From the IMG/VR virus record IMGVR_UViG_3300008261_000043, positions 1 through 43,465 of that record: a stretch of 43,465 nucleotides of DNA; one strand, 5' to 3'. The translations under genes and the position numbers were made by a program. Under the pieces are notes generated by a model. The model was given only the letters and a program-made list of their open reading frames with translations, was not told the DNA's origin and searched no databases. The DNA is from a virus. This document shows positions 3,701 to 36,205 of this stretch, piece by piece. The number at the start of each line of letters is the position of its first letter. Within the stretch, counting starts at the first letter, position 1.

Positions 3701-5307
3701 GTTCAAATAGTGTAATTAATTTTAATGGAACAGGTTCACAAACTTGGTCACATTCTGTTGCATCATCATTTACAGCTACACCAATAACCATAAATAAACC
3801 AACAGGTGCGTTAACATTATCTGGTCAAATATATTTTCAAGGCTCTTCTTTAACATATACAGCAAACTCATCATCAGTAATAACAACAGGTTCTACTTTT
3901 AATATTGCAGCAAGTTCTACACTTACAACAAGTGGTATTACATGGAATGCAATAAATTGGTCAGGGGGAACAATAACACTAGCCAACGCATTAACTGCAA
4001 CTGGTTTAATTACAGTTACTCATGCTGCTCCTGTACTTAATGGTAGTGATTTATATGCAAATGGTGGGATGAATTATACTGCTTCAAATATTAGTGGTAA
4101 TTTTTCTTTTATTAGTGGAACATCTACAATTAGATTTGAAGGTACAGGCTCATGGACAAGTCCGAATTATGGAACATATAGAAATAATGTTATTATAAAT
4201 CCAACTGGTTCTTTTTCTATAAATGTAACTTATGTTTTAGGTACTATAACTTATAGCTCATCTAATGGAGGAACAATAAGTTCTGCTTATGTTACTGTTG
4301 GATATTATACAGCAACAAGTTCAATAGGACTATCAAGAAGTGTAACATTTAATACAAATGATATGCTTTGGAATCAGATATATTGCATGAGTTATACTAA
4401 TTCTAATGTAAGTCCTACCGCTTCAACAATTACTTGTTTATCTAACTTAAATGTTTATCAGTTATTTTTTGCATCAATTGGTACAGGTCAATTAGATAGT
4501 TTTACCTTTTCTTTTTCTGAAGGATTTAACATAACTAATCTTTATAACCTTAATTTAGATGCTAGGGTGACTGTCAATTTAGGAAAAGATTTAGTAACGG
4601 AAACTTTAATTTTTGGCACTGGAATATATCAAAGATTAAATAATTTTTCAGTAAAAGTAAATAGACTTTTAACTTCATCTGCATCTCAAGGTGCAATAGC
4701 TATTCAAGGTAGTACAAAAATTATTATGGCAAATAAAAGTTCATGGCAAAGAACTGATGGTAATACTACTTTATATTTTAACATGGAATTTCAAGGTAAT
4801 ATTACTTTTGGAACAACTGCTTTTCCAACTATGGTTTTTGCAGGCAACACTTTAGCTTATACAGGAACAAATGTGTCATCACCTGTGGGTAGAGGTAGTT
4901 TTCAAATAGCTTCTAATGCAACATTAACAAACTTAAACAAAATAGTATTTACTAATTTAATAATATCTAGTGGTGTAACATTAACCATGAATGAGTTTTT
5001 TAGTGGCTCTGCTAATATTATAACACCTATACAAGCATCATCTACTACCAATTACACAATAACATTTACAGATAATTTTGAAAAAATAGCAAAATTTGTA
5101 AATATTAGTGGATGTACATTATCAAGACCTCAACAATTATTACTTATTACAAATAGTAAAAAAAGCTCAACTAATACAAGAGGAATTAGATACATCAATT
5201 CATTACCAAATGGAATTCCTAAAGGAGAACCAAGTACAATGAATTCTTTGGGATTCTCTACTTCTAATTATTTAGCTGGTGATCCAGCTTTTGTAAAAAC
5301 AATATAA
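772..5307 (+). CDS. Large repetitive beta-rich tail fibre/adhesin
   Basis: 1511 residues, very rich in Thr, Ser, Asn and Gly with almost no charged residues, as expected for a beta-helix or beta-solenoid fibre. A repeat recurs, with a landmark like NGTGSQTW followed by INKPSGxLTLG, IYYNTGxLTYT, TLATNGITWNN and SNNLxW. Landmarks lie at DNA positions about 1300 (divergent), 2686, 3193 and 3727, so the clearest units are 169-178 residues. The last ~200 residues are more charged and non-repetitive (GIRYINSLPNGIPKG) and may be an attachment or trimerisation module. There is no signal peptide, consistent with a virion protein. It most likely binds the host surface. Known fibres of this type vary quickly by repeat recombination. 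The start at 772 lies inside the Com-like gene. Confidence 0.75.
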   Translation: MATYTVANGGGNINAASTYVGGVGVPGAADDIDFTATSGQLTVNVNTTILDINFSNYTNVITFTASLTVTRNITLNTTTSTYTTAGAEGIVKTGTGTITSNSKIWTAKFTLGGTTAYTVTFNDAMNVSGEVVFSNTNTTTLSPNNVLDPERFNILGNFTLSGTTGILTGTTTIRITGTSNQTWAGGGSTAQIRSDLKVDKTGGTLSITGNIYYNTKLFTYVQGTVNTSSSTLVISTATTTMDTNGSTSSGATTTSSTGINWNNVTLSTTLNLTNNFTCVGTFTSSIGTITRTASQNVYLGGNLTMSGALTSTAATVIMNGTGTWSGGGAVTAPLTFNTSGTITVSGTVVFSTRTLTYITAASVVTTGSTLTASTSCTLATNGMTWNNFTCNATATITLSNNFSFSGTLRLGEAIGVTITYGGVGALSATSTASVVLGLQQFGVGGGSTINFPTSTVLNIASLTIQCPGNTNVGHNTTVNNATFNVSGNFALNYSNQGMSYFTGTSTSVNMIGSGSITTSGSIASASINVPFTINTSGTYTFSTGNIFTNTTVTYISGTLSGSTVVFTGCTLNLNAGGDWVVATVIRGATTLTSNATFTNTLTTNTTAVTFSGAFTINVKGNLEINTTTSGASTPIVINGTGNQTWTATSYLSNTLTINKPSGNLTLGANIYYNTGILTYTAANLVDTTTNSTTLTINGSCTLATNGISWVNISNVATATITLSNDLVWTNNWNVTAGTISFSGANNLNPASTANIAFSGSSTVSIKNNIQVTNATVGVTTINTNQIAISGNLTVASTTSGSTTLLINGTGSQSWTHITANYLSNSVTINKASGTLTLGATIYYSTGTLTYTAGTVNTTTNSTTLRYNAAVILNTWSSALNDGITWVNIVFQGGTVTTTINTDLVWSGTFTQTSGTLSFNGTGSLAPVSTANLTLSSGISFSVKNNIQITNLSLNNSQLLNNTVSILGNLTVNSAQSGSNSVINFNGTGSQTWSHSVASSFTATPITINKPTGALTLSGQIYFQGSSLTYTANSSSVITTGSTFNIAASSTLTTSGITWNAINWSGGTITLANALTATGLITVTHAAPVLNGSDLYANGGMNYTASNISGNFSFISGTSTIRFEGTGSWTSPNYGTYRNNVIINPTGSFSINVTYVLGTITYSSSNGGTISSAYVTVGYYTATSSIGLSRSVTFNTNDMLWNQIYCMSYTNSNVSPTASTITCLSNLNVYQLFFASIGTGQLDSFTFSFSEGFNITNLYNLNLDARVTVNLGKDLVTETLIFGTGIYQRLNNFSVKVNRLLTSSASQGAIAIQGSTKIIMANKSSWQRTDGNTTLYFNMEFQGNITFGTTAFPTMVFAGNTLAYTGTNVSSPVGRGSFQIASNATLTNLNKIVFTNLIISSGVTLTMNEFFSGSANIITPIQASSTTNYTITFTDNFEKIAKFVNISGCTLSRPQQLLLITNSKKSSTNTRGIRYINSLPNGIPKGEPSTMNSLGFSTSNYLAGDPAFVKTI
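2686..4240 (+). repeat. Tandem ~170-178-residue coding repeats in the fibre gene
   Basis: Three consecutive units start at 2686, 3193 and 3727 with GGTACAGGT or GGAACAGGT encoding GTG(N/S)Q(T/S)W. Unit lengths are 507 and 534 bases; the third fades after about 4140. A divergent copy begins near 1300. Similarity is clear in protein and partial in DNA, so the duplication is old and diverged rather than recent. Confidence 0.6.
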
Positions 5308-5319: not shown

Positions 5320-5337
5320 TAAATAAAACCAATAATT

Positions 5338-7680: not shown

Positions 7681-7691
7681 AAACCAACAAA
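7681..7691 (+). promoter_or_regulatory. Shared leader motif AAACCAACAAA
   Basis: Exact copy of the recurrent leader element directly abutting the ATG at 7692. No Shine-Dalgarno is present; the motif may serve in initiation or as a target for a regulator. Confidence 0.55.
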
Positions 7692-7973
7692 ATGTCTGAA
7701 CAAAAAGAAAAAGAAGTAGTAATGACTCCTGAAGAGTTAGCTGCTCAAAGAAAAAATGTAATTCAATATTACAAAAATCAAGTTGAAATACTTAAACATC
7801 AGTTTGAGTATGAAGAGTTATTGGCTAACATTGAAGAAGCTAGAACTAAAAGAATGGCTTTCATTGTAAGACAAGCTCAAATGACTGCTGGACCTGAATC
7901 AGAAGATTCTGTAGAACAAGAAATCCCTGTACAACAAGAAGAAAAAAAAGAAAGAAAATTAAAATCAAATTAA
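7692..7973 (+). CDS. Charged helical protein of unknown function
   Basis: 93 residues, acidic and Gln/Lys-rich, nearly all helical, with a likely coiled coil at 15-60 (YKNQVEILKHQFEYEELL) and a disordered acidic end (VEQEIPVQQEEKKERK). It is the first gene after a strong promoter match. There are no catalytic motifs or membrane segments. A binding or scaffolding role is possible, but I do not recognise the family. Confidence 0.65.
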   Translation: MSEQKEKEVVMTPEELAAQRKNVIQYYKNQVEILKHQFEYEELLANIEEARTKRMAFIVRQAQMTAGPESEDSVEQEIPVQQEEKKERKLKSN

Positions 7974-7984
7974 CTTGCTAAACT

Positions 7985-7993
7985 AAACCAACA
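7985..7993 (+). promoter_or_regulatory. Leader motif AAACCAACA overlapping a start codon
   Basis: The element runs into the ATG at 7993. TAACTTGC at 7971 could be a weak -7 box but lacks a -33 partner, so this copy may act in translation rather than follow its own promoter. Confidence 0.45.
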
Positions 7994-10830: not shown

Positions 10831-11031
10831 ATGACTGAACTACATGACTGGTTGTTTCATTACAATCCTTACAAAAAAATTTGGGCTGCTATTAAAAGAG
10901 ATGATGTAGCTAAATATTTTAATGGAGAATTAGAAAATATTTTAACTTCTAAAAAACAATCAACACTGGTTGATATCATTTTAAAAACTGATGGAGAAGA
11001 GAACAAAATAAAAAAGTTAATTAATGGATAA
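10831..11031 (+). CDS. Small conserved-looking protein immediately before TerL
   Basis: 66 residues from ATG 10831 (MTELHDWLFHYNPYKKIW). An in-frame ATG at 10819 is possible but would overlap the previous stop; the later start matches the short HDWLFHYN opening I recall for this type of protein beside TerL in Bacteroidota phages. It overlaps TerL by 8 bases. Role unknown, perhaps a packaging accessory. Confidence 0.6.
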   Translation: MTELHDWLFHYNPYKKIWAAIKRDDVAKYFNGELENILTSKKQSTLVDIILKTDGEENKIKKLING

Positions 11032-14000
11032 GTTTTTTTATACTGATATCCCTACTTGGGATAATGGTACATGGACCTATACTTCTTTTAATTCTAGAAC
11101 TGAATTTAGAGATTTTGTACTTTCTGTATTTAAAGAACCTGGAAAATATGAATTTGATAAAACCTCTTTCCTATTTAATGAACAAGCTAGAAAATATAAT
11201 GAACAAAAATTTTATTGTGCTGCTCCAGTAAGAACTAAAGACTTTATTGAATATTGGGATGATCAAAAAGCCAAGTGTAGAAAAGGTGTAATATTTCATA
11301 ATAATGGAAACACATGGTATCTTACTAGAGAGTATTATATGTGGCTTAACTTTTTGCCTATTAATAACAAAGAGATAAGAAAGTTCTCATTTCCTGATGT
11401 AAGAGATGCTCAATATCACATGGCTCTCTATGAGATTCTTGCAGAACTATTTTATAAACATGCTGCAATTTTAAAGAAAAGACAGATAGCGTCTTCATAT
11501 TTTCATGCAGCTAAACTTATTAACTGTATTTGGTTTGAAGAAACCCCTATTTTAAAAATAGGAGCTAGTCTTAAAACTTATGTAAATGATACATGGAGAT
11601 TCTTAAATGAGTACAGAAACTTCTTAGATGATAATACAGCTTGGTATAGACCTATGAACCCAGGTAAAGTTCTTGACTGGCAGCAACAAATTGAAACTAC
11701 AGTACCAGGTTCTAACCGCAAAACTCTTAAAGGTTTAAAAGGTGTACTTAAAGGAACCTCTTTTGAAAAAGATCCCACAGCTGGTGTAGGTGGACCATGT
11801 CATAGAGAAGGTACTCTTATCCTGATGTCTTCCGGTGAATATAAAAAAGTAGAAGATATCAAAATTGGAGAGTATGTTTTAGGCATTGATAATAAACCTA
11901 AAAAAGTTTTAAAAACATTTTCTGGTAAAGATTCTATCTATGAAATAAATCAAATAAAAGGTATGTCTTATTATGTAACAGGTGAGCATAAATTATACCT
12001 TATAAATAGAGATGCTAATGTTCTAGGAAAAAATAAATTAAGAATAACCAAAGCTAAAGATTGGGATAATCTTAGTAGTTATTGTAAAAAGGTATATGTA
12101 GGTGTTAAAAATAATCAAATACTTTCATTTTATAATGATTATCAAAAACCTATAATAGATCCTTATTTTTTAGGACTATGGATAGGTGATGGATATAGAG
12201 AAAAACCAGCATTAATAGTAAATAATACAAAAGATCCAGAAATACTAGATTACTTAAAAACCTTAGCTTATGAAACACAAAGTAAATTAAGCATAAGAAA
12301 AAAAGAAGTAAAAAGATATAATGATGAAATGTATAATGCTTTTTTTCTTATAAGTAATGATGGTAAAAACAGCTTTTTTACTGACCAGTTTATAAAATAT
12401 AATCTTTTTTATAATAAGCATATTCCCAATGAAATTCTTTATGGAAGTCCAGAAACCAGATTGCAATTTTTAGCAGGGTATATAGATACTGATGGATATT
12501 ATGATCCCAACAAAGGACATTTTGAGATAAGTTGTAAATCAGATGCTTTGTTAAAGCAGATAGTTTTTATTTGCAGAAGTTTAGGAGCTTATGTTAAAAC
12601 ATATAAATCTTCTTCTAAAGAACATACTGTTGATGGAAAAACTATAGTTTATTCAGAAAGTAATAGAGCAAGTATAAGGTTTAATGATAGTAGTATTATA
12701 CCCACAAAATTACCAAGAAAACAAGGTTCAAACTTAAGAACAAGAACTATTCATACTTCTCCTATAGAGTCAGTTATTTGTTTAGGTATAGAAAATTATT
12801 ACGGAATAGAAGTAGAAGATCATTTATATTACTTAGAAGATTTAACAATTACCCACAACTGCACTTACTTTTTTCATGAAGAGGCTGGGATTGCTCCAAA
12901 AATGGATGAAACTTTTGGTTATATGAAGCCTGCTTTAAAATCTGGTATGATAACTACTGGTACTTTTATAGCTGCTGGCTCTGTTGGTGATCTTGATCAG
13001 TGTGAACCACTTAGAGATATGATTTTAAGACCAGAAGGTAATGATATATTTTATGTAGAGTCTGATCTTTTAAATGATAAAAAAACTTTTGGTAAATCTG
13101 GTTTATTTATTCCTGAACAATGGTCAATGCCTCCATGTGTAGATGACTATGGTAATTCTAAAGTAGAAGAGGCTTTGCAAATGCTGGAGGAATATTTTCA
13201 AAAAAAGAAAAAAGATTTAAGTCCTGAAGCTTACCAGTTAGAAATATCTCAGCATCCCAGAAATATAGAAGAAGCTTTTGCTGCTAGAACAGTGTCTGTT
13301 TTTCCTACTCATTTAGTAGCAGCTCAAAAAAGAAGAATAGAAAATAAAGAATATTCTACAGAATATATAGAACTTAGCAAAAGTGCTGAGGGTAAATGGC
13401 TTATAGATAAAAGTAAAAAAATCCCTATAAGAGATTTTCCTATTCAAAAAAATATTGAAGATAAGTCTGGAGTAATAGTTGTTTATGAAAGACCGGTAGC
13501 AGATGCTCCTTTTGGAACATATTATGCATCTATTGACCCAGTGGCTCAAGGAAAAACTTCTTCTTCTGAATCACTTTGTTCTATTTATATTTATAAAGTT
13601 CCGGTAGAGGTGACCAGAATAAATGGTGAAGAAGTAACAAATTACATAGAAGATGATGGTATTGTTGCATCTTGGTGTGGTAGATTTGATGATGTAAACA
13701 AAACTCATCAAAGATTAGAACTTTTAATTGAATGGTATAATGCTTGGACTATTGTAGAAAATAATGTCCCTGGATTTCTTACTTATATGATAGGTAGAAG
13801 AAAACAAAAATATCTTGTTCCTAAAAGTCAAATTACATTTAGAAAAGATATAGAATACACTTCTAATGGTCCAGAAGAATATGGTTGGAGAAATACAGGT
13901 ACTTTATTTAAAACTTATATTTTACCATATCTAATAGATTACTGTAAAGAAGAACTTGATGCTGTAACTAAAGAAGACGGTGAAGTTGTAAAAATAAAAT

Positions 14001-14290
14001 ATGGTATAGAAAGAATTCCTGATGTTATGGCTATGGTAGAAATGGAACATTACAGGGAAGGGTTAAATGTGGATAGACTTATAGCCTTAGGAGCTCTTAT
14101 AGCTTTTGCTAAAGTTCAGGAGGCTAACAGAGGAATCAAGAAAAGAGTAGATGATACAGGTAAGAAGAAAACTTTGGATAATTCAAAAAATTTAACTAAA
14201 TTTACTAATAACCCTTTTAGACATATTGGGGTAAACAATGGAGCTTTAGGGACTAGAATTCCTAGAAATCCTTTTAAAAATATAAGATGA
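11024..14290 (+). CDS. terL: Terminase large subunit (TerL) interrupted by an intein
   Basis: 1088-residue precursor; splicing out the 354-residue intein leaves 734 residues. The N-extein has a Walker A-like element, KKRQIASS at 151-158. The C-extein begins at Cys613 with the Walker B-like TYFFHEE (614-620). The nuclease domain shows Asp838 (YASIDP), Glu912 (WTIVENN) and late acidic residues Asp1000/Asp1017 (PDVMAM, DRLIALGAL) as RNase H-like metal ligands. TerL cuts concatemers and drives ATP-dependent DNA packaging at the portal. It is followed by the portal gene with a one-base gap. The intein sits at the active site, so the enzyme is presumably inactive until protein splicing. Confidence 0.9.
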   Translation: MDKFFYTDIPTWDNGTWTYTSFNSRTEFRDFVLSVFKEPGKYEFDKTSFLFNEQARKYNEQKFYCAAPVRTKDFIEYWDDQKAKCRKGVIFHNNGNTWYLTREYYMWLNFLPINNKEIRKFSFPDVRDAQYHMALYEILAELFYKHAAILKKRQIASSYFHAAKLINCIWFEETPILKIGASLKTYVNDTWRFLNEYRNFLDDNTAWYRPMNPGKVLDWQQQIETTVPGSNRKTLKGLKGVLKGTSFEKDPTAGVGGPCHREGTLILMSSGEYKKVEDIKIGEYVLGIDNKPKKVLKTFSGKDSIYEINQIKGMSYYVTGEHKLYLINRDANVLGKNKLRITKAKDWDNLSSYCKKVYVGVKNNQILSFYNDYQKPIIDPYFLGLWIGDGYREKPALIVNNTKDPEILDYLKTLAYETQSKLSIRKKEVKRYNDEMYNAFFLISNDGKNSFFTDQFIKYNLFYNKHIPNEILYGSPETRLQFLAGYIDTDGYYDPNKGHFEISCKSDALLKQIVFICRSLGAYVKTYKSSSKEHTVDGKTIVYSESNRASIRFNDSSIIPTKLPRKQGSNLRTRTIHTSPIESVICLGIENYYGIEVEDHLYYLEDLTITHNCTYFFHEEAGIAPKMDETFGYMKPALKSGMITTGTFIAAGSVGDLDQCEPLRDMILRPEGNDIFYVESDLLNDKKTFGKSGLFIPEQWSMPPCVDDYGNSKVEEALQMLEEYFQKKKKDLSPEAYQLEISQHPRNIEEAFAARTVSVFPTHLVAAQKRRIENKEYSTEYIELSKSAEGKWLIDKSKKIPIRDFPIQKNIEDKSGVIVVYERPVADAPFGTYYASIDPVAQGKTSSSESLCSIYIYKVPVEVTRINGEEVTNYIEDDGIVASWCGRFDDVNKTHQRLELLIEWYNAWTIVENNVPGFLTYMIGRRKQKYLVPKSQITFRKDIEYTSNGPEEYGWRNTGTLFKTYILPYLIDYCKEELDAVTKEDGEVVKIKYGIERIPDVMAMVEMEHYREGLNVDRLIALGALIAFAKVQEANRGIKKRVDDTGKKKTLDNSKNLTKFTNNPFRHIGVNNGALGTRIPRNPFKNIR
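11798..12859 (+). mobile_element. LAGLIDADG intein within TerL
   Basis: Residues 259-612 of the precursor form a complete class 1 intein: N-terminal Cys followed by HREGTLILM...VEDIKIGEYVLG (block A), TGEH (block B TxxH) at intein 61-64, LAGLIDADG motifs LGLWIGDG (125-132) and LAGYIDTDG (225-233), and C-terminal THN followed by extein Cys613. All splicing residues look intact. The endonuclease motifs keep both acidic residues, so homing may still work. The site lies just upstream of the Walker B strand of the ATPase, a conserved target region in TerL. Confidence 0.92.
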
Positions 14291-17092: not shown

Positions 17093-17133
17093 ATAGGTAA
17101 TACATAATTTTAAATTTTTAAAGTTTATTTGAA

Positions 17134-17141
17134 TAAATTTG
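17134..17141 (+). promoter_or_regulatory. Possible -7 box before the scaffold gene
   Basis: TAAATTTG matches TAnnTTTG and is followed by the same GCT(T/A)ATAT stretch and AAACCAACAAA leader as the 21102-21132 promoter. No clear TTG lies 19-20 bases upstream, so strength is uncertain. Confidence 0.45.
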
Positions 17142-17156
17142 CTTATATTATATAAT

Positions 17157-17167
17157 AAACCAACAAA
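17157..17167 (+). promoter_or_regulatory. Shared leader motif AAACCAACAAA
   Basis: Exact copy, with its last A being the first base of the ATG at 17167; a preceding T extends the match to the candidate antisense loop at 28377-28391 to 12 bases. Confidence 0.55.
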
Positions 17168-20195: not shown

Positions 20196-20220
20196 TAATA
20201 TGAAAAAATTACAATCTACA
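20186..20220 (+). promoter_or_regulatory. Hairpin sequestering the homing endonuclease start codon
   Basis: TGTAGATTTGTAAT (20186-20199) pairs with ATTACAATCTACA (20208-20220): 13 base pairs with one bulged T, the ATG at 20200 in the 8-base loop. RNA reading through from the capsid gene would fold this and hide the start; RNA from the nested promoter would not. Confidence 0.65.
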
Positions 20221-20985
20221 GACTCAAGAGTTATAGAGGCTATAAATCTTTATAACTCAGGAATGGCAATTAAACCTATATGTCATAAATTAAAAATGGA
20301 TGGAGAATCTCTTAGAAAAATACTTAAAGAGCTAAATCTTTTAAGAACAAGATCACAAGCAGCTCAAAAAAGTAAATTATTAGGAGAGGTAAACCATCAA
20401 GTTTTAGATATATTAACACCTGAAAGTTTATACTGGATAGGATTTTTATATGCTGATGGACATATAGAAAAAGAAAGACCAAGAATATCAACTACATTAT
20501 CTTCAGAAGATAAAACACATCTTGAAAAAATGGCTTCTTTTTTTGGAAAAGGTATAAGTGTAAGAAAACTAGGTTCTGGACACTACAGAGTAGCTTTTAG
20601 TTCAACACCTATTTATTATAAATTAATAAGTATGGGGTTTACTAGTAGAAAAACTTATGCTATTATTCCACATGAAGGATTAAAAAATTCAAAAGATTTT
20701 TGGAGAGGTGTAGTAGATGGTGATGGATGGTTAAGTAATGGTAAACAAACATCATTAGGTTTGTGTGGTCATATTAACACTATACAGGAATTTCTTAATT
20801 TTATACAAAAAAATGGTATAAAAACTAAAGCCAAACCCCATAAAGTTAAAAAAAGAGAATATTTGTGGACAATTGATCTACATGCAAATAAGGATAAAGC
20901 TGTTGCAAATTTACTCTACAAAGACTCAACTGTTTACTTAGACCGCAAGTATCAAAAGTACTTAGAGTTTACAGAAACAGAATAA
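20200..20985 (+). CDS. LAGLIDADG homing endonuclease with N-terminal HTH
   Basis: 261 residues. Residues ~8-46 form a resolvase-type helix-turn-helix (VIEAINLYNSGMAIKPICHK...). Two LAGLIDADG helices follow: WIGFLYADG (79-87) and WRGVVDGDG (168-176), each ending in an acidic catalytic residue, so the enzyme is a one-chain, two-motif endonuclease. It would cut a long asymmetric target in phage lacking the insert. It is free-standing between the capsid gene and 21161 rather than inside a reading frame. The ATG lies within a 13-bp hairpin and just after a promoter. Coding is intact, so it may be active. Confidence 0.88.
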   Translation: MKKLQSTDSRVIEAINLYNSGMAIKPICHKLKMDGESLRKILKELNLLRTRSQAAQKSKLLGEVNHQVLDILTPESLYWIGFLYADGHIEKERPRISTTLSSEDKTHLEKMASFFGKGISVRKLGSGHYRVAFSSTPIYYKLISMGFTSRKTYAIIPHEGLKNSKDFWRGVVDGDGWLSNGKQTSLGLCGHINTIQEFLNFIQKNGIKTKAKPHKVKKREYLWTIDLHANKDKAVANLLYKDSTVYLDRKYQKYLEFTETE

Positions 20986-21139: not shown

Positions 21140-21161
21140 AAACCAACAAAACAAACCAACA
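21140..21161 (+). promoter_or_regulatory. Double leader motif AAACCAACAAA / AAACCAACA
   Basis: Two copies in tandem, 21140-21150 and 21153-21161, the second running into the ATG at 21161. This is the only leader with two copies. Confidence 0.55.
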
Positions 21162-27370: not shown

Positions 27371-27381
27371 AAACCAACAAA
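27371..27381 (+). promoter_or_regulatory. Shared leader motif AAACCAACAAA
   Basis: Exact copy just before the ATG at 27383. No clear -33/-7 pair precedes it, so the motif can occur within an operon as well as after a promoter. Confidence 0.5.
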
Positions 27382-27382
27382 T

Positions 27383-27556
27383 ATGAGCAAGTGTTTAAAT
27401 TGTAATAAAAATTTATCCTGTGGATGTAAAAAAAGAACAGCTTCAGATGGAAAAAGTTGTTGTTCTGATTGTTTAAGTAGTTATGAAGCAGGACTTAAAA
27501 AATTAAAAACTACTACAGCTAATAATGTAGTAATATATAAAGCACCAAAAAAATAA
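27383..27556 (+). CDS. Small zinc-ribbon protein
   Basis: 57 residues. Seven or eight Cys in the first 32 residues: C-x2-C, then CGC, then CC-x2-C (SKCLNCNKNLSCGCKKRT...KSCCSDCLSSYE). Looks like a treble-clef or double zinc ribbon. The pattern CLNCxKxLSCGC..R.ASDGK is one I recall from many Bacteroidota phages near structural genes. The helical tail KKLKTTTANNVVIYKAPKK is basic. Role unknown. Confidence 0.7.
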   Translation: MSKCLNCNKNLSCGCKKRTASDGKSCCSDCLSSYEAGLKKLKTTTANNVVIYKAPKK

Positions 27557-27561
27557 TACAG

Positions 27562-28362
27562 ATGGCATCAAGAAATGTAAGACCGGGTTGGACTTCAAAT
27601 AATCCTTGTATTACTGTTGAATATATTGAAAAAGTAAACTGTAGTTTTGCAAAACAGGTTTATGATCAAATGATATCTGTAAGATATGGTATTCAATCTT
27701 GTTGTTTAGAAGATTTGATGAAATGGGATATTAAGAAACAAGTTTTAGATTATGAACTTAAAACTATTCCTGATGATCAAATACTTCATCCATTGTGTTA
27801 TTGTTATACAGTGAATGTAACATCTGGTACCGGTTGTTTTAAATATTTAGATTGTAATGGTGAAACAAATCTTATCACAATAACAGGTCCTAAAATAGAA
27901 AAGATATGTTCTGAAAAAACTCCTGAGCTAATCTGTCCTACAGAAGATGTTTATTATTCTATAACAGGAGCTCCAATAGTTTGTAGCTCAGATCTTATTT
28001 GTAACTATAACATTTTAGAAGTTATGTTACCAGATTGTACTGTACCATTAGATGAAGGTTGTCTTGAGCTATATTGTAAAATATGGGCTAGTGTTGAATC
28101 AACAACTATTACAATAAATAACACACCATATACATTTGATAATTATACAAATAGTGAGTGTAATGATGATAATATACCTGTTGATTTAATTATTTTAATT
28201 GAAAATATCAACTCTTTAAATTTAGGCACTGCAACAATTAATTCTTCAGGTACAGGTTTTACTGTTATAGGAGAAAATGAGTTTGGAGATTTAGAAATTA
28301 GTAGAGGAGAATATTTGGATCCTTACATAATTACCACTACTTGTACTACAAATTGTGAATAA
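27562..28362 (+). CDS. Cysteine-rich virion-region protein
   Basis: 266 residues, beta-rich, about 20 Cys, several paired (SCCLED, CSEK, TTCTTNC). The N-terminal half is helical (IEKVNCSFAKQVYDQMISV), the C-terminal half resembles a beta-sandwich with low charge. Likely structural by context; the Cys content suggests metal binding or disulphides after release. It is followed by a hairpin and a strong terminator. Confidence 0.65.
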   Translation: MASRNVRPGWTSNNPCITVEYIEKVNCSFAKQVYDQMISVRYGIQSCCLEDLMKWDIKKQVLDYELKTIPDDQILHPLCYCYTVNVTSGTGCFKYLDCNGETNLITITGPKIEKICSEKTPELICPTEDVYYSITGAPIVCSSDLICNYNILEVMLPDCTVPLDEGCLELYCKIWASVESTTITINNTPYTFDNYTNSECNDDNIPVDLIILIENINSLNLGTATINSSGTGFTVIGENEFGDLEISRGEYLDPYIITTTCTTNCE

Positions 28363-28369
28363 AGATTGA

Positions 28370-28402
28370 TGTCACGGTTTGTTGGTTTAAACGTGGCTGA
28401 CA
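28370..28402 (+). ncRNA. Hairpin with loop antisense to the shared leader motif
   Basis: TGTCACG (28370-28376) pairs with CGTG...ACA (28392-28402, with a small bulge), and the 15-base loop 28377-28391 reads GTTTGTTGGTTTAAA. Its reverse complement contains AAACCAACAAA exactly, the leader found before several genes here. It sits in the 3' region of the preceding transcript, four bases before a strong terminator, which is the layout of 3'-derived regulatory RNAs. Regulation is inferred, not shown. Confidence 0.45.
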
Positions 28403-28405
28403 GGC

Positions 28406-28439
28406 AAAGTCTCTGGTTAAATTATACCAGAGACTTTTT
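28406..28439 (+). terminator. Intrinsic terminator
   Basis: AAAGTCTCTGGT (28406-28417) pairs perfectly with ACCAGAGACTTT (28426-28437), 12 bp, with an 8-base loop and a T run 28435-28439. Ends the transcript of the Cys-rich block. Confidence 0.88.
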
Positions 28440-28486
28440 GCTTTATATACAATAAAAGTTTATTTTTAAACTTTAGAAAAATTGTG

Positions 28487-28494
28487 TATATTTA
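28487..28494 (+). promoter_or_regulatory. Weak -7 box before the 28506 gene
   Basis: TATATTTA, one base off the TAnnTTTG consensus, after a terminator and 11 bases before the ATG. No clear -33 partner; included because a new transcript is needed here. Confidence 0.35.
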
Positions 28495-28505
28495 TATATA
28501 AGAGT

Positions 28506-29099
28506 ATGTTAAAAGAATTCAAAAAACCAGATGTAAAAGCTCCTAGATGTAGGGCCGGTGTTCATTCAATATTGAATAAAGCTTTTATTGATGATTTTGT
28601 AAGTAAGTATCCTCAATATGCAGGAATAACTTATTTTGAATTATTAAAGATAGTTAAAGCTTTTAATAAAAAACTATGGGAACATGCAGCTGTTAGTAGA
28701 GATGGTACAGAATTACCAGAAGGTTTAGGGTACATCTTTATAGGAACTTGTTTTTCTCCTAAAAAATTTAATAATAATTATGGAGAATCAATAAAGCAAG
28801 ATTACAGAATAAGACATAGAAATTTTGAATCTGATAACTATTTGTGTAAAATATTTTATACTAATTTTTCTACTAAATATAAGTTTAAGTTTAGAGAACT
28901 TTGGTCATTTGAGCCAACAAGAAGTTTTAAAAGAAGTGTATCTAAAACTTATCCGGAAAACTGGAAAATATATTTACAAGTAGAAGGTAATAAACATATA
29001 AGTAAGTATATTAAAAAATACTTTAAAAAAGAATATGTTAAAAAAGTGATTAAGAATTTTGTTCTTGATCCAAATTATAATGAGTTTGATTTAAACTAA
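28506..29099 (+). CDS. Conserved-looking tail/connector-region protein
   Basis: 197 residues from ATG 28506. An upstream in-frame TTG at 28482 lies inside the promoter-like box and is rejected. Segments FVSKYPQYAGITYFELLKIV and ELPEGLGYIFIGTC are of a type I recall from many Bacteroidota phages beside connector genes. Basic in the second half. Function unknown; probable virion or assembly role by context. Confidence 0.65.
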   Translation: MLKEFKKPDVKAPRCRAGVHSILNKAFIDDFVSKYPQYAGITYFELLKIVKAFNKKLWEHAAVSRDGTELPEGLGYIFIGTCFSPKKFNNNYGESIKQDYRIRHRNFESDNYLCKIFYTNFSTKYKFKFRELWSFEPTRSFKRSVSKTYPENWKIYLQVEGNKHISKYIKKYFKKEYVKKVIKNFVLDPNYNEFDLN

Positions 29100-29104
29100 A
29101 AAAC

Positions 29105-29776
29105 ATGACAACAATTGGTGAAACTATCTCCCGAGTTAGAAATGTAGTAAAAGGTGTTAAAGAAGATGCTTTCTTAACTGATAGATTTATATATAGTCTT
29201 GTTCTTAAATATGGAAAAGCTTTAATAAGAAGACAAGATAATGAAAACAAGATTATGAGATTTCAAAGTTTATTTGAAAAATTACCTTGTGTAGAACTTA
29301 TTGAAGTAAACAAAGTTGAGGCTTGTTGTGGTGGAATAAGATCTAACTGTACTATAAAAAGAACAAAAGATAAACTTCCTACTGTATTAGAAGGTGCTTA
29401 TGGACCATTATTTAGAACAATCAGTTCTATTGATGGATCTATACAAGTATATAAAACTTATCCTAGTACATATACTAATATGGCAAACTCAACTCATTTT
29501 AGATATAATAAAAACAAATACTATTGGTATTTAGGTGGTTATTTATATTTTCCTAATATAGAATGGGAAGCTGTTTCAATTGAAGGTCTTTGGGATGAAA
29601 GTATAGCAATGTATACTTGTGATGGAGATGTTTGTAAACCTAGACAAGAAGATGATACACATATTCCTGAATATTTATTTGCTGAAATAGAAAAAATGGT
29701 ACTGGGTGATTTAGTTCAATTAATGCAAACACCTATTGAAAATGTAGATGATAATCAAAATATTTTAAGATCTTAA
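29105..29776 (+). CDS. Ring/connector-like protein
   Basis: 223 residues; helical start (TIGETISRVRNVVKGVKEDAF) then beta-rich with Cys (EACCGGIRSNC) and an Asp/Glu-rich end. Layout and position, followed directly by another adaptor-like protein and the huge tail protein, fit the ring proteins that link portal to tail in crAss-like phages. No diagnostic motif; medium-low certainty. Confidence 0.6.
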   Translation: MTTIGETISRVRNVVKGVKEDAFLTDRFIYSLVLKYGKALIRRQDNENKIMRFQSLFEKLPCVELIEVNKVEACCGGIRSNCTIKRTKDKLPTVLEGAYGPLFRTISSIDGSIQVYKTYPSTYTNMANSTHFRYNKNKYYWYLGGYLYFPNIEWEAVSIEGLWDESIAMYTCDGDVCKPRQEDDTHIPEYLFAEIEKMVLGDLVQLMQTPIENVDDNQNILRS

Positions 29777-29780
29777 TACA

Positions 29781-30803
29781 ATGTCATATAATTACACACT
29801 CCGGTATCGAACTTTTGATCAAATGCTTGATGATGTTCAAGTAGACTTTCAAAACTTGTCATTACAAAATATGATTGAACCTCAACAACTTATCAAAGTT
29901 GCCAAGAAAGTTACTTATGATTTAGGTTTAAGAATTCTTATGACTAAAGAAACACTACTTGATGTAAAAAAAGGTAAAGTAAAATTACCTGATGATTTCT
30001 TTGTTCTTAATTATTCACTTATTTGTGATGAGCTTACCATCAATGAACCTGTTATGCAAGGAACTGATATTCAAGAAGTTACCTTAATTCCTAGTTATAA
30101 GCAAACAACATCAGAAATTAATCCTTGTTCTGAACCTACAGTAAATTGTGCTTCATGTGGAGTTCCAACTACAAGTTGTGGTTGCCCATCTCCTGCATCA
30201 AATTGTCCTGTTCTACCGGAAGGACAAAACTATTGTGCAAAACCAAAACTACAAATCAATTGTAAAGGTGATGTATATGAATTAGTACAAGTTGTAAAAT
30301 CACATCAAAGAACATACAAAAGACTTTGGCCTCTTAATATTATAGCAAATGCTCAATCTATTGCTTGTGACTGCCCTAACTTATATGTTAAGTCACCTCA
30401 ACAAGCTTGGATTAAAGACAATTATCTTTATACAAATTTTGATACGGCTACTGTTTACATTAGTTATCAAGGTCAGCTAGAAGATGAAGAAGGTAATTTA
30501 TTAGTACCAGATCATCCTGAAATAAATGATTATTATGAATATGCTATTAAGCAAAGAATTCTAGAAAATCTTTTGATGAATGATGAACCTGTAACTGCTA
30601 AATTACAGATAGTAGAAGCTAGATTAAGACAAGCTAGAAACTATGCTAAAAGTATAGTAAATACACCTAATTTTGCAGAAATGAAAGAAATGTGGTGGGC
30701 TAATAGAAAAGCACAATATGGTAGATTTTATGATCAATTTAAAAGCTACCCTTGGAACCAAGGTTTTAATATTAATGTGTATAACCAAATGGATAGATTC
30801 TAA
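29781..30803 (+). CDS. Ring/stabilisation-like protein with Cys cluster
   Basis: 340 residues. N-terminal helical (MIEPQQLIKVAKKVTYDLGL) then a beta-rich region and a long C-terminal helical part (LRQARNYAKSIVNTPNFAEM). Unusual insert at residues 116-161 with eight Cys (116, 123, 126, 133, 135, 142, 152, 161) rich in Pro and Ser, likely a metal-binding or disulphide knot. Ends in TAATG into the giant tail gene. Resembles the stabilisation/ring proteins of crAss-like phages in order and style. Confidence 0.6.
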   Translation: MSYNYTLRYRTFDQMLDDVQVDFQNLSLQNMIEPQQLIKVAKKVTYDLGLRILMTKETLLDVKKGKVKLPDDFFVLNYSLICDELTINEPVMQGTDIQEVTLIPSYKQTTSEINPCSEPTVNCASCGVPTTSCGCPSPASNCPVLPEGQNYCAKPKLQINCKGDVYELVQVVKSHQRTYKRLWPLNIIANAQSIACDCPNLYVKSPQQAWIKDNYLYTNFDTATVYISYQGQLEDEEGNLLVPDHPEINDYYEYAIKQRILENLLMNDEPVTAKLQIVEARLRQARNYAKSIVNTPNFAEMKEMWWANRKAQYGRFYDQFKSYPWNQGFNINVYNQMDRF

Positions 30804-33800: not shown

Positions 33801-36205
33801 CATTAGGTCATACAGATATTCCTGCTCCAACTAAAATTGATAAAACTAGATTTGATAGTACAGGTTTAACAACATCATCAACACCTAATTTACCTATTGG
33901 TGCTAAATATTTTTGGCCAGATAAAGCATCATGGTTAGATGGAATTCCTGATACTAGTATTGAAAACTTAACTAGTAAAGAAATAGATTCTAGTATGATG
34001 GTTGATACATATAGTACACCATTGCACCCTGGTCAATTGTGTTCTTCTCATTATGGAGCATTAAAAGTAAGAATTAGAAATCAATATGGTCAATTAAATA
34101 GAATAGTACAATTACCTGTTAATCAATGTTATACAACTTTTAATGTTACAATAAATCCTGAAACACAACAAGAAGTTGTTACCGGAGATGAAACAATTGT
34201 TTTATTTGGTGGTGATACTTATGTAAACAGATACACAGAAAAGAATACATTTTTCTTTTTTTACAATTGGTTATATGGACAACCAGATGGTGCACAATTA
34301 GATTACACTCAATATGAAATGATAGCTTATCCTAAATATTGGGCTAACTTTAATCAATTTCAAACAAGTGATTTTACCTCAACATTTTTAAGTTCTATAA
34401 CAACTTTAACATTTAATTTTAATGATGTAATTACTCCAAAAGATTACTATGCTTTAGATGGTGGTGAATTAAGTGGAAATTGGCTGACAAGTATAGCTAG
34501 CGGATTTAGATTTGATAAAAGAGGTTGGTTTTATTTATTTAACTCAGGAGTTAGAGATTTCTTTGTAGAGTCTGAAATAAATTTAGCATTTAGAGATTAT
34601 GGTGCTTTACCTTCTGAAAAATATTTTAATCCTTACTTAGGTTCTAATACTAAAGACTTATTTGAAACAAGTATTATTAAATCTGGTAATTATTACAAAT
34701 ATGATATCTCATTAAGTACTTCAAAATTACCAACTAATTATACATCTTGGGCAAATACACAAGAACCTAGTTATGATCCTTATATTGCTGAAACTTGTTT
34801 TGTATATCAACCAACTAGAATAATATATTCTTTACCATCTCAGTATGAAGGACTTAAAGATGGCTGGAAAATATTTTTAGCTAATAATTATTATGATTTT
34901 GATAATGTAGTTACATGCATCAAACCTGTAAATAAAAGTGGTGCTATGATATTTTTTGATGCTGCAAGTCCTGTTCAATTTCAAGGTACTGATCAGTTAC
35001 AAACAGACTTAGGCACCAAACTTACTATTGGTGATGGGGGATTGTTTTCACAACCATTACAAAGATTAGTAAATACAGATGCTTCTTATGAATATGCTAG
35101 TTGTCAAAATAGATTAAGTGTTATTAATACACCTGCCGGTTTATATTGGATTAGTCAAAATCAAGGTAAGATATTTAATCTTTCAGGAGGTATTAAAGAG
35201 ATTTCTAACATTAACATGAAATGGTGGTTAGCTCAATATTTACCTTATAAATTAACAGAGCAATTTCCTAACTTTGATTTAATAGATAACCCAGTTATTG
35301 GTTTAGGTTGTCAATCTATTTATGATAATGAAAATGGTTTAATTTACTTTACTAAAAAAGATTATATACTTAAACCTACTTTTAATAAAAATGATTTTGA
35401 GTATATTCCTAATACCAACAAATTTATTTATCTTAATCTTCAAGAAGAAATAACATTAGGAGATCCTCTTTACTTTGATGATGCCTCATGGACAATAAGT
35501 TATGACCCTAAAACAGAAGGTTGGTTAGGTTATCATGATTGGCACCCGAGTCTGATGCTTCCTGGAAAAAACACTTTTATGACTGTAAATCCTAATAACT
35601 TAAAAGGTATATGGATTCATAATGAAAGATGTGATTTATATTGTAACTATTATGGATTAAATTATCCATTTGAAGTTGAGTTTACTGTAAATACAGGAGC
35701 TATTGTAAATAGTTTAAGAAGTATAGAATTTTTTATGGAAGCCTATAAATATGCAGAAAACTGCTATGATAGATTTCATGTTCTTGATTTTTACTTTGAT
35801 GAAGCAACTCTTTACAATACAGAACAGACTTCAGGATTACTCAAGTTAAACTTAAATCCTAAAGAAAGTCCTGGTTTAATACTTCAATATCCACAAGTTA
35901 ATCCTACCAATATTGCTATACTATTTTCTAAAGAAGAAAATAAATATAGATTTAATCAGTTTTGGGATATAACTGCAGACAGAGGAGAATACAATCCGGC
36001 AGCACAAAGACCTATTTGGGATACTGCACCTAATGGATATATAAGAGTATTAAATCCTAATAACTTAAATTATAACAAAGATCCTTTGCAAAGAAAAAAA
36101 TTCAGACATTATACTGTATCTGTCTTACTTAGAAAACTTGTATCAGGAGACAGAAAAATGTTAGTGATGTTAGCAGATGTTAAAAACCTTTATTCTCCAA
36201 GATAA
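30803..36205 (+). CDS. Giant tail protein (hub/muzzle-like)
   Basis: 1800 residues, beta-rich throughout, no coiled-coil tape-measure region, no signal. Opening segment RTFDKSLNEDVNDFHLPSNQWTQARN and many aromatic loops. A low-complexity, Ser/Gly/Thr-rich section lies at about residues 765-830. The only protein in the window big enough to form the tail tip or tube end; in crAss-like phages a similarly large protein (muzzle) occupies this place after the ring genes. Assignment is by size and context. Coupled to both neighbours by one-base overlaps. Confidence 0.6.
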   Translation: MAEQNNNSRTFDKSLNEDVNDFHLPSNQWTQARNAINNSITGDLGKLGNEPANLECLTPDLKYPIIGFIHIIEDRWAVFSTDGTNSEIGIFIESYCGQDLENFPAYSVIVNDQCLNFKQECLIKGVSRSTSTCTYKLYWDDGLNPSRVLEIDADNPSRNEYTDPNSTIPWKQTCTLVGDCNICENTSALDCDKIRLAPLMNPICISVQNGISGGNLLNGSYAVAMAYAIKGQKISDWYISNIQPIWTHENSSGSLDVYIDSVDKDYDEVVVAVIGVVNQQAVVKEAGLYSTRQTRISFDSIFDTWPTIPIEQIPIMTPVANKSDAMYNVGEYLLRVGPTSKEDFNYQPLANQIVTKWQSVEYPVDYYVKGNNNVGYMRDEVYSFFIQWIYDTGDRSASYHIPGRPPMNALPQNGSIPFIPAGSQNDQNVIADINGILGDNQVWEIYNTAIELSSPGTILPDTGVVRGEGLMGYWESEEKYPDDKPDIWNSNIAVSPYNVYQTVTPNPTTGSQHDLCGKNIRHHKFPEDNCSPNVNRYNAGTGDRIRVMGVKFENVKQPVLNDGVTPVPGIIGYRILRGTRNGNRSVIAKGIINNMHEYEIPGVNAANKRGLYPNYPYNDLREDPFLSTTKTYTTSSLDPFDGAQGSVGGYTPMPGGFDGFPRFSPNYVTFHSPETNFNNPFLNAKELRLYQNVYGNVIGKFDTSEEHPKEKLITDYVFLIAAIGGVGVAVLNMNGERRVSKKLASYPGFSHRDSFIDKLDYSGLSTSGSFNSSGSIGVGPVSPASAGPFPTTGGGTTSGNFSGTVDNKDSYKATDPAGPDPNFYTNIQTQTGSTPAAKVNQALLTYNIEVDITGNQFQDAIAGTINQVDKDTTDAQKTSNEAVDNTGGAFSSSTTTIEQSDGNSQRTPFLLRTLTNTPTFLNYFTDGTDSFIRLVRAFLRYRDYVVRYHSHGFYNNTELRPSTRFRTTLTNQQYINPEIIDYDSQNRINNLYRSRTVALTLGHTDIPAPTKIDKTRFDSTGLTTSSTPNLPIGAKYFWPDKASWLDGIPDTSIENLTSKEIDSSMMVDTYSTPLHPGQLCSSHYGALKVRIRNQYGQLNRIVQLPVNQCYTTFNVTINPETQQEVVTGDETIVLFGGDTYVNRYTEKNTFFFFYNWLYGQPDGAQLDYTQYEMIAYPKYWANFNQFQTSDFTSTFLSSITTLTFNFNDVITPKDYYALDGGELSGNWLTSIASGFRFDKRGWFYLFNSGVRDFFVESEINLAFRDYGALPSEKYFNPYLGSNTKDLFETSIIKSGNYYKYDISLSTSKLPTNYTSWANTQEPSYDPYIAETCFVYQPTRIIYSLPSQYEGLKDGWKIFLANNYYDFDNVVTCIKPVNKSGAMIFFDAASPVQFQGTDQLQTDLGTKLTIGDGGLFSQPLQRLVNTDASYEYASCQNRLSVINTPAGLYWISQNQGKIFNLSGGIKEISNINMKWWLAQYLPYKLTEQFPNFDLIDNPVIGLGCQSIYDNENGLIYFTKKDYILKPTFNKNDFEYIPNTNKFIYLNLQEEITLGDPLYFDDASWTISYDPKTEGWLGYHDWHPSLMLPGKNTFMTVNPNNLKGIWIHNERCDLYCNYYGLNYPFEVEFTVNTGAIVNSLRSIEFFMEAYKYAENCYDRFHVLDFYFDEATLYNTEQTSGLLKLNLNPKESPGLILQYPQVNPTNIAILFSKEENKYRFNQFWDITADRGEYNPAAQRPIWDTAPNGYIRVLNPNNLNYNKDPLQRKKFRHYTVSVLLRKLVSGDRKMLVMLADVKNLYSPR

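Follow-up and report, generated by a model that had tools for sequence, protein, structure and literature searches.

The window analyzed here, that is, the whole 43.5-kb stretch of DNA making up one IMG/VR virus record, belongs to a crAss-like phage. Its Pfam and PHROGs matches include the terminase large subunit (with an intein), Crass_capsid, CrAss_Ring_2, CrAss_Ring_1 and a muzzle protein. A short RNA element lies between a variable gene and the genes that precede and encode the tail ring proteins. The features of this locus are:

27562–28362, + strand: variable gene, 266 aa; its stop codon is 8 nt before the hairpin, and it is non-homologous among the window and the relatives G001 and G002.
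28371–28439, + strand: predicted extent of the whole RNA element, ~69 nt, comprising a hairpin, a linker and an intrinsic terminator; member of a covariance-model family with one strong copy per relative; fold z-score -5.5.
28371–28376, + strand: 5ʹ arm of the covarying stem, GTCACG.
28381–28389, + strand: seed GTTGGTTTA in the loop, complement of TAAACCAAC; (nearly) invariant in the family, with its complement enriched before gene starts.
28392–28397, + strand: 3ʹ arm of the covarying stem, CGTGGC.
28398–28405, + strand: linker TGACAGGC, CTRAYWRG-like and conserved; its complement occurs in group C and D leaders, a putative second contact in some relatives.
28406–28437, + strand: intrinsic terminator of 12 pairs with a T tail; relatives change the sequence and keep the structure.
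28506–29099, + strand: conserved downstream neighbour, 197 aa, 26–60% identical in relatives and always downstream of the RNA.
29105–29776, + strand: tail ring protein 2 (Pfam CrAss_Ring_2), a syntenic anchor.
29781–30803, + strand: ring protein 1 (Pfam CrAss_Ring_1), a syntenic anchor.

Elsewhere in the window, the terminase large subunit (1088 aa, 11024–14290) carries its intein (Pfam Hom_end_hint, Hom_end and LAGLIDADG) at residues about 256–616; the terminase genes of most relatives encode about 733 aa and have no intein. A stand-alone LAGLIDADG-type ORF of 261 aa (20200–20985), located between the capsid gene and a 338-aa gene discussed below, is possibly a free homing endonuclease.

An 83-nt stretch covering the element folds with a predicted energy of -30.4 kcal/mol (z = -5.5). 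The initial annotation, made from the sequence alone, described a hairpin with an exposed loop, followed at once by a strong intrinsic terminator. The terminator is present, as is the hairpin, at 28371–28397; the 15-base loop is not fully open, since in the predicted fold UUUG (28378–28381) pairs with UAAA (28388–28391) and only UUGGUU is left unpaired, so that the margin of the seed is partly masked in the window. Groups C and D, which are more distant, lack this inner pairing or have a different one. The element differs from a plain terminator in having a separate upstream hairpin with a constant loop and a covarying stem. It is short and structured, ends in its own terminator, and is conserved as an RNA. 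No tRNA or tmRNA was found, no clear promoter was identified directly upstream of the RNA, and Rfam 15 gave no match in the window at the gathering threshold and none around the element with E up to 1. The AT-rich stretch 28440–28505 separates the terminator from the 197-aa gene, and TATATTTATATATAAG just before the ATG of that gene is a possible promoter for the ring/muzzle block.

The initial annotation also reported that the loop is complementary to a leader found immediately before several gene starts. These leaders are where it placed them, ahead of the genes at 7692, 7993, 17167, 21161 (two copies) and 27383, with a variant before 5338:

5326–5337, + strand: variant leader AAACCAATAATT before 5338, weaker.
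7681–7691, + strand: leader AAACCAACAAA of the 93-aa gene at 7692.
7985–7992, + strand: leader AAACCAAC of the 137-aa gene at 7993, conserved in orthologues.
17157–17166, + strand: leader AAACCAACAA of the 420-aa gene at 17167, conserved in orthologues from groups A–D.
21140–21150, + strand: first leader copy of the 338-aa gene at 21161; the double copy is kept in many orthologues.
21153–21160, + strand: second leader copy of the same gene.
27371–27381, + strand: leader AAACCAACAAA of the 57-aa Cys-rich gene at 27383, conserved in orthologues of 54–71 aa.

Three of the copies (the 9-mers at 7985 and 21153, the 11-mer at 17157) reach into the start codon and take in the A of its ATG. The count of the 11-mer AAACCAACAAA against composition-matched shuffles, which the initial annotation had recommended, gives five copies over both strands of the window (four on the + strand and one on the - strand, inside the hairpin), whereas dinucleotide shuffles predict 0.11; for the 9-mer there are nine copies versus 0.82 expected. 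Four more window copies of AAACCAAC/AAACCAACA are away from gene starts, at 3796, 16906 and 37938 (+ strand) and at 34524 (- strand). The exact 11–12-base complement originally described holds within the window's group of relatives but not beyond it; across relatives, the constant pairing core is 7–9 bases, AAACCAA(C) against (G)TTGGTTT.

Our searches placed the element in a conserved, structured RNA family, with members in about 40 records of related crAss-like viruses. When viral contigs were searched for exact 16-mer matches, 39 stretches came up, mostly coincidences; six of them had the hairpin, a TAACA-type linker and a terminator. A first covariance model was built from six sequences, and long relatives were fetched through their terminase. 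Nearly every long terminase relative has one strong model match, and at terminase identities of only 55–66% the matches still reach E about 1e-6. The family was then extended by a pattern scan, a second model and relatives of a target gene. Two further members, missed by the model, were found by inspecting the syntenic place, and the weak matches in G050, G056 and G058 (E 0.008–0.02) were assigned using position as well. The 197-aa neighbour, used as a single-sequence query, found no relatives. A custom scan for a hairpin plus terminator with TTGGTT at loci of the 338-aa gene, which has at least 571 relatives, returned one type only, already known from the model, mainly because the loci stop short of the site. 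In cellular genomes, the 112 exact matches to the 16-mer are at the level expected by chance, and none has the architecture of the RNA.

The stem of the hairpin covaries. In the alignment, 97.8% of cells are paired, with 0/500 shuffles as good and slid partners reaching only 16–38%; in a wider set, 86.2% are paired, again with 0/500 shuffles as good. While compensatory changes alter the stem, the loop core TTGGTT(T) persists, such that the same core sits on stems as different as GTCACG/CGTGGC, AGTCGT/ACGACT, GCTGTGA/TCGCAGC and GTCAGTGG/CCACCTGAC. The initial annotation had made its proposal depend on conservation of the loop together with the leaders in relatives. Indeed, the loop core is conserved in about 40 relatives with a changing stem, and the leaders are kept at orthologous genes.

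The position of the RNA is conserved too. The order in relatives is variable gene, RNA, 197-aa-type neighbour, Ring_2, Ring_1. In 28/30 genomes the RNA begins 0–12 nt past the stop codon of a long frame; the other two have no clear upstream frame. Of the genomes in which both could be placed, most have about 95–160 nt between the RNA and the neighbour; in G056, G063 and G068 the gap is about 1.5 kb and contains another gene. The upstream gene is not even homologous among some members; hence, the conserved item is the RNA and not the gene that precedes it. Two promoter-like motifs were noted in passing. The stretch GTAAATTATTAATGTAG precedes the 197-aa homologue in G056/G063, with a similar stretch before the 420-aa homologue, and TTTGC.TATATTA precedes the 420-aa gene (window ~17130–17167) and its orthologues in groups A and D; both are possible phage promoter motifs.

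For each genome, we asked which 7-mers of the RNA have complements that are over-represented in the 40 nt before ORFs, relative to dinucleotide shuffles. Among the first 14 genomes, complements of the loop core numbered 26 v 2.4, 6 v 0.9, 12 v 0.9 and 15 v 1.2 expected in groups A, B, C and D, respectively. Ten genomes gathered later gave 26 v 4.0 for GTTGGTT and 62 v 12.8 for TTGGTTT. Across all 24 genomes, almost no other part of the RNA has a complement enriched upstream of starts. The density of AAACCAAC is 5.4 per nt at 0–4 nt before the ATG and 0.03–0.07 per nt beyond 40 nt, and the leaders are mostly 0–9 bases before the AUG. The conserved seed is complementary to the 5ʹ leaders of genes elsewhere in the genome. 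Largely the same orthologues carry these leaders, namely genes of about 93, 137, 420, 338 (often with two copies) and 54–71 aa; in group D, mainly the 420- and 330-aa genes still carry leaders. Most leaders are upstream of the RNA and on the same strand. The ~420-aa target gene is just before the capsid gene and the ~338-aa target is after it. Structure and family searches for the 420-, 338- and 137-aa target proteins returned nothing convincing. One group B leader carrier, in G028 (L296:2770-3033), encodes a GroES-like co-chaperonin (Pfam Cpn10, E 2e-16), and is possibly a regulated chaperone for virion assembly. Ranking by duplex energy puts leader genes at or near the top in most genomes; in G045, G048 and G056 they are not singled out.

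Covariation between loop and leaders, a check suggested by the initial annotation, was sought in distant clades, and no double changes were seen in the seed, because the loop hardly varies. In some clades the leaders have drifted (to AAACCAAAC and AAAACCAAAACC) with the loop unchanged, and the base 3ʹ of AAACCAAC shows no clear covariation with the base 5ʹ of the seed. The linker provides a second point of comparison, at which the match is specific to certain groups and covaries in part. In group D, AGTCA occurs upstream of the leader motif in 10/12 leaders versus 8/523 other genes, and complements TGACT of the linker; in group C, the RNA has TGACTGACA and the leader of the 423-aa gene has TGTCAGTCA. 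For the 332-aa gene of G033, leader and RNA could form about 22 bp in two blocks (-28.0 kcal/mol), and the predicted duplexes for G027 and for the 418-aa gene of G047 are similar in energy (-28.1 and -28.9 kcal/mol, respectively). With row and column effects removed, cognate duplexes are better than non-cognate ones by about 2 kcal/mol, a difference equalled in 56/5000 and 65/5000 permutations (p about 0.01, with permutations that ignore phylogeny). AGTCA might be a feature of promoters or start sites as well, since some group A leaders carry it although the linker does not match.

RNA and leaders co-occur. Of twelve named phages, eleven lack the RNA, one has a chance-level match, and none has a clear leader excess. 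The crAss-like phages crAss001, DAC15, phi14:2, cr111_1, cr118_1, cr55_1, cr1_1 and csAssE-Sib have neither a match to the RNA model nor a clear excess of leaders over a reversed-pattern control. The cultured relatives FpV4, Fpv1 and phi17:2 have no RNA match and Lbo-JY46 only one at chance level (E 0.25), and a clear leader excess was found in none of the four. As a separate matter, L561 (PP438436.1, Leptolyngbya phage Lbo-JY46) bears a cyanobacterial host label and encodes crAss-like capsid and ring proteins, with TATCTTTG, which resembles a promoter of the Bacteroidota type, ahead of the ring gene region; its host assignment may be worth re-examining.

What might this RNA do? The initial annotation suggested a trans-acting small RNA, and joint conservation of the family, the loop and the leaders supports that reading. 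We propose, with a probability of about 0.68, that the element is a trans-acting, probably 3ʹ-UTR, base-pairing sRNA that represses translation of a phage regulon. The sequences argue strongly for pairing of the RNA with the leaders; that the RNA is expressed, processed and paired in the cell, that it represses rather than activates translation, and when it acts are steps that we infer. The 3ʹ end of the gene block that precedes the tail ring genes would itself be, or would give rise to, the RNA, with the RNA's own terminator closing it. Several phage genes have (U)AAACCAA(C) in their short leaders, mostly 0–9 nt before the AUG, and the hairpin would present the seed (G)UUGGUUU(A) to this sequence. 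In some clades, the linker (e.g. CUGACUAG) may pair with a complementary stretch further upstream in the leader, and the two contacts together would amount to about 20 bp, interrupted by a bulge or an internal loop. In Bacteroidota, ribosomes initiate without Shine-Dalgarno pairing and favour messages in which the stretch before the AUG is A-rich and unpaired (PMC6847099). Kinship with crAss-like phages suggests that the hosts are Bacteroidota. Pairing would cover the region that such ribosomes need unpaired, and translation would be repressed. Since the RNA sits at the end of the block holding most of its targets, its likely role would be negative feedback on selected genes once the block has been transcribed.

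An alternative explanation is that pairing with the leaders activates or stabilises the messages instead of repressing translation, for example by shielding the mRNA 5ʹ end. The same sequence evidence for pairing would serve, a duplex on such short leaders could cover the 5ʹ end too, and the phage RNAs AsxR and IsrK can raise expression (PMC12197685). However, the sites are 0–9 nt before the AUG, where pairing normally hinders initiation, and the A-rich leaders have no evident self-inhibiting structure for an RNA to open. We consider activation unlikely. A shade less likely again is that AAACCAA(C) is an element for the start of translation or transcription, and the hairpin a conserved 3ʹ-end or protein-binding element whose loop matches the leaders without pairing in the cell. 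The lack of seed covariation fits this explanation, as leader and loop are each nearly constant and could be so for reasons of their own, and A-rich leaders favour initiation in Bacteroidota. It is harder to reconcile with the loop being, in every group, the one part of the RNA that complements the leader, with the match at the second contact in some groups, and with the lack of a leader excess in named relatives that have no RNA.

Could the main targets instead be host messages or RNAs, with the phage leaders as decoys or by-products? Several phage sRNAs, such as PreS and AgvB, act on host messages or sRNAs (PMC12197685). Nonetheless, the complement is concentrated directly at the AUG of a fixed set of orthologous phage genes, which makes this explanation very unlikely. 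Slightly more improbable still is a cis-acting attenuator or mRNA 3ʹ-end structure that controls only the downstream 197-aa and ring genes. The terminator is just upstream of these genes in most relatives, but the three genomes with another gene in the interval do not fit, among them a promoter-like sequence shared with a target gene is found right before the neighbour, and the match to distant leaders would be left unexplained. Lastly, although short A/C-rich words are common in such genomes, and the 16-mer recurs in cellular genomes as often as chance predicts, we rejected a chance match in AT-rich sequence beside an ordinary terminator as next to impossible, given the shuffle counts in the window (5 v 0.11) and in relatives, and the fact that about 40 records keep the RNA, its position and the leaders.

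Two classes of known RNA resemble the repressive sRNA proposed here. The c4 antisense RNA of P1/P7 is also a small phage RNA with complementary sequence probably in loops, and it prevents translation of a phage message by binding in the region of the ribosome-binding site (PMC12197685). In contrast, c4 acts on one message, ant, in temperate-phage immunity, whereas the window's RNA has several predicted targets, spread through the virion block several kilobases away, and not an immunity message beside its own locus; no ant-like Pfam match was found among the target genes tested, and no sequence relation between c4 and the window's RNA was found in Rfam. OppZ and CarZ of Vibrio cholerae come from operon 3ʹ ends with a terminator and inhibit translation of their own message by pairing (PMC7398697). 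The window's RNA has the same placement, directly after a stop codon and ending in a terminator. OppZ and CarZ, however, belong to the host, are produced by RNase E and act together with Hfq; the window's RNA is encoded by a phage whose hosts are presumably Bacteroidota, and its predicted targets have a single repeated leader in common.

Base pairing is also the mode of regulation of the phage RNAs sar (P22), OOP (lambda), PreS (lambda) and VpdS (VP882) (PMC12197685). Of these, sar and OOP are each antisense to a message that adjoins or overlaps them, PreS is directed at host dnaN, and VpdS, from a temperate phage, works together with Hfq; that source describes none of them as reading a leader common to a set of phage genes. 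Our literature search, which left most subscription journals and all bioRxiv preprints outside its scope, found nothing on the motif or on sRNAs of crAss-like phages. A base-pairing phage sRNA is a known kind of regulator; a conserved family whose regulon lies on the phage itself and is marked by a common leader would be new.

We also put forward a broader model, which we hold to be evenly poised between right and wrong: a clade-wide regulon in which a single sRNA, encoded where the structural block ends, recognises AAACCAA(C) as the leader common to selected genes, the ~420- and ~338-aa genes among them, and sets their output by feedback, with a second contact in places, in hosts that do without Shine-Dalgarno sequences. 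The crAss-like phages are very abundant, mostly uncultured viruses, and little is known of how their expression is controlled. If the proposal is true, they would have a phage-internal post-transcriptional regulon for which the RNA, the target sites and the predicted pairs are already mapped, and it would show how antisense control works where ribosomes ignore Shine-Dalgarno sequences.
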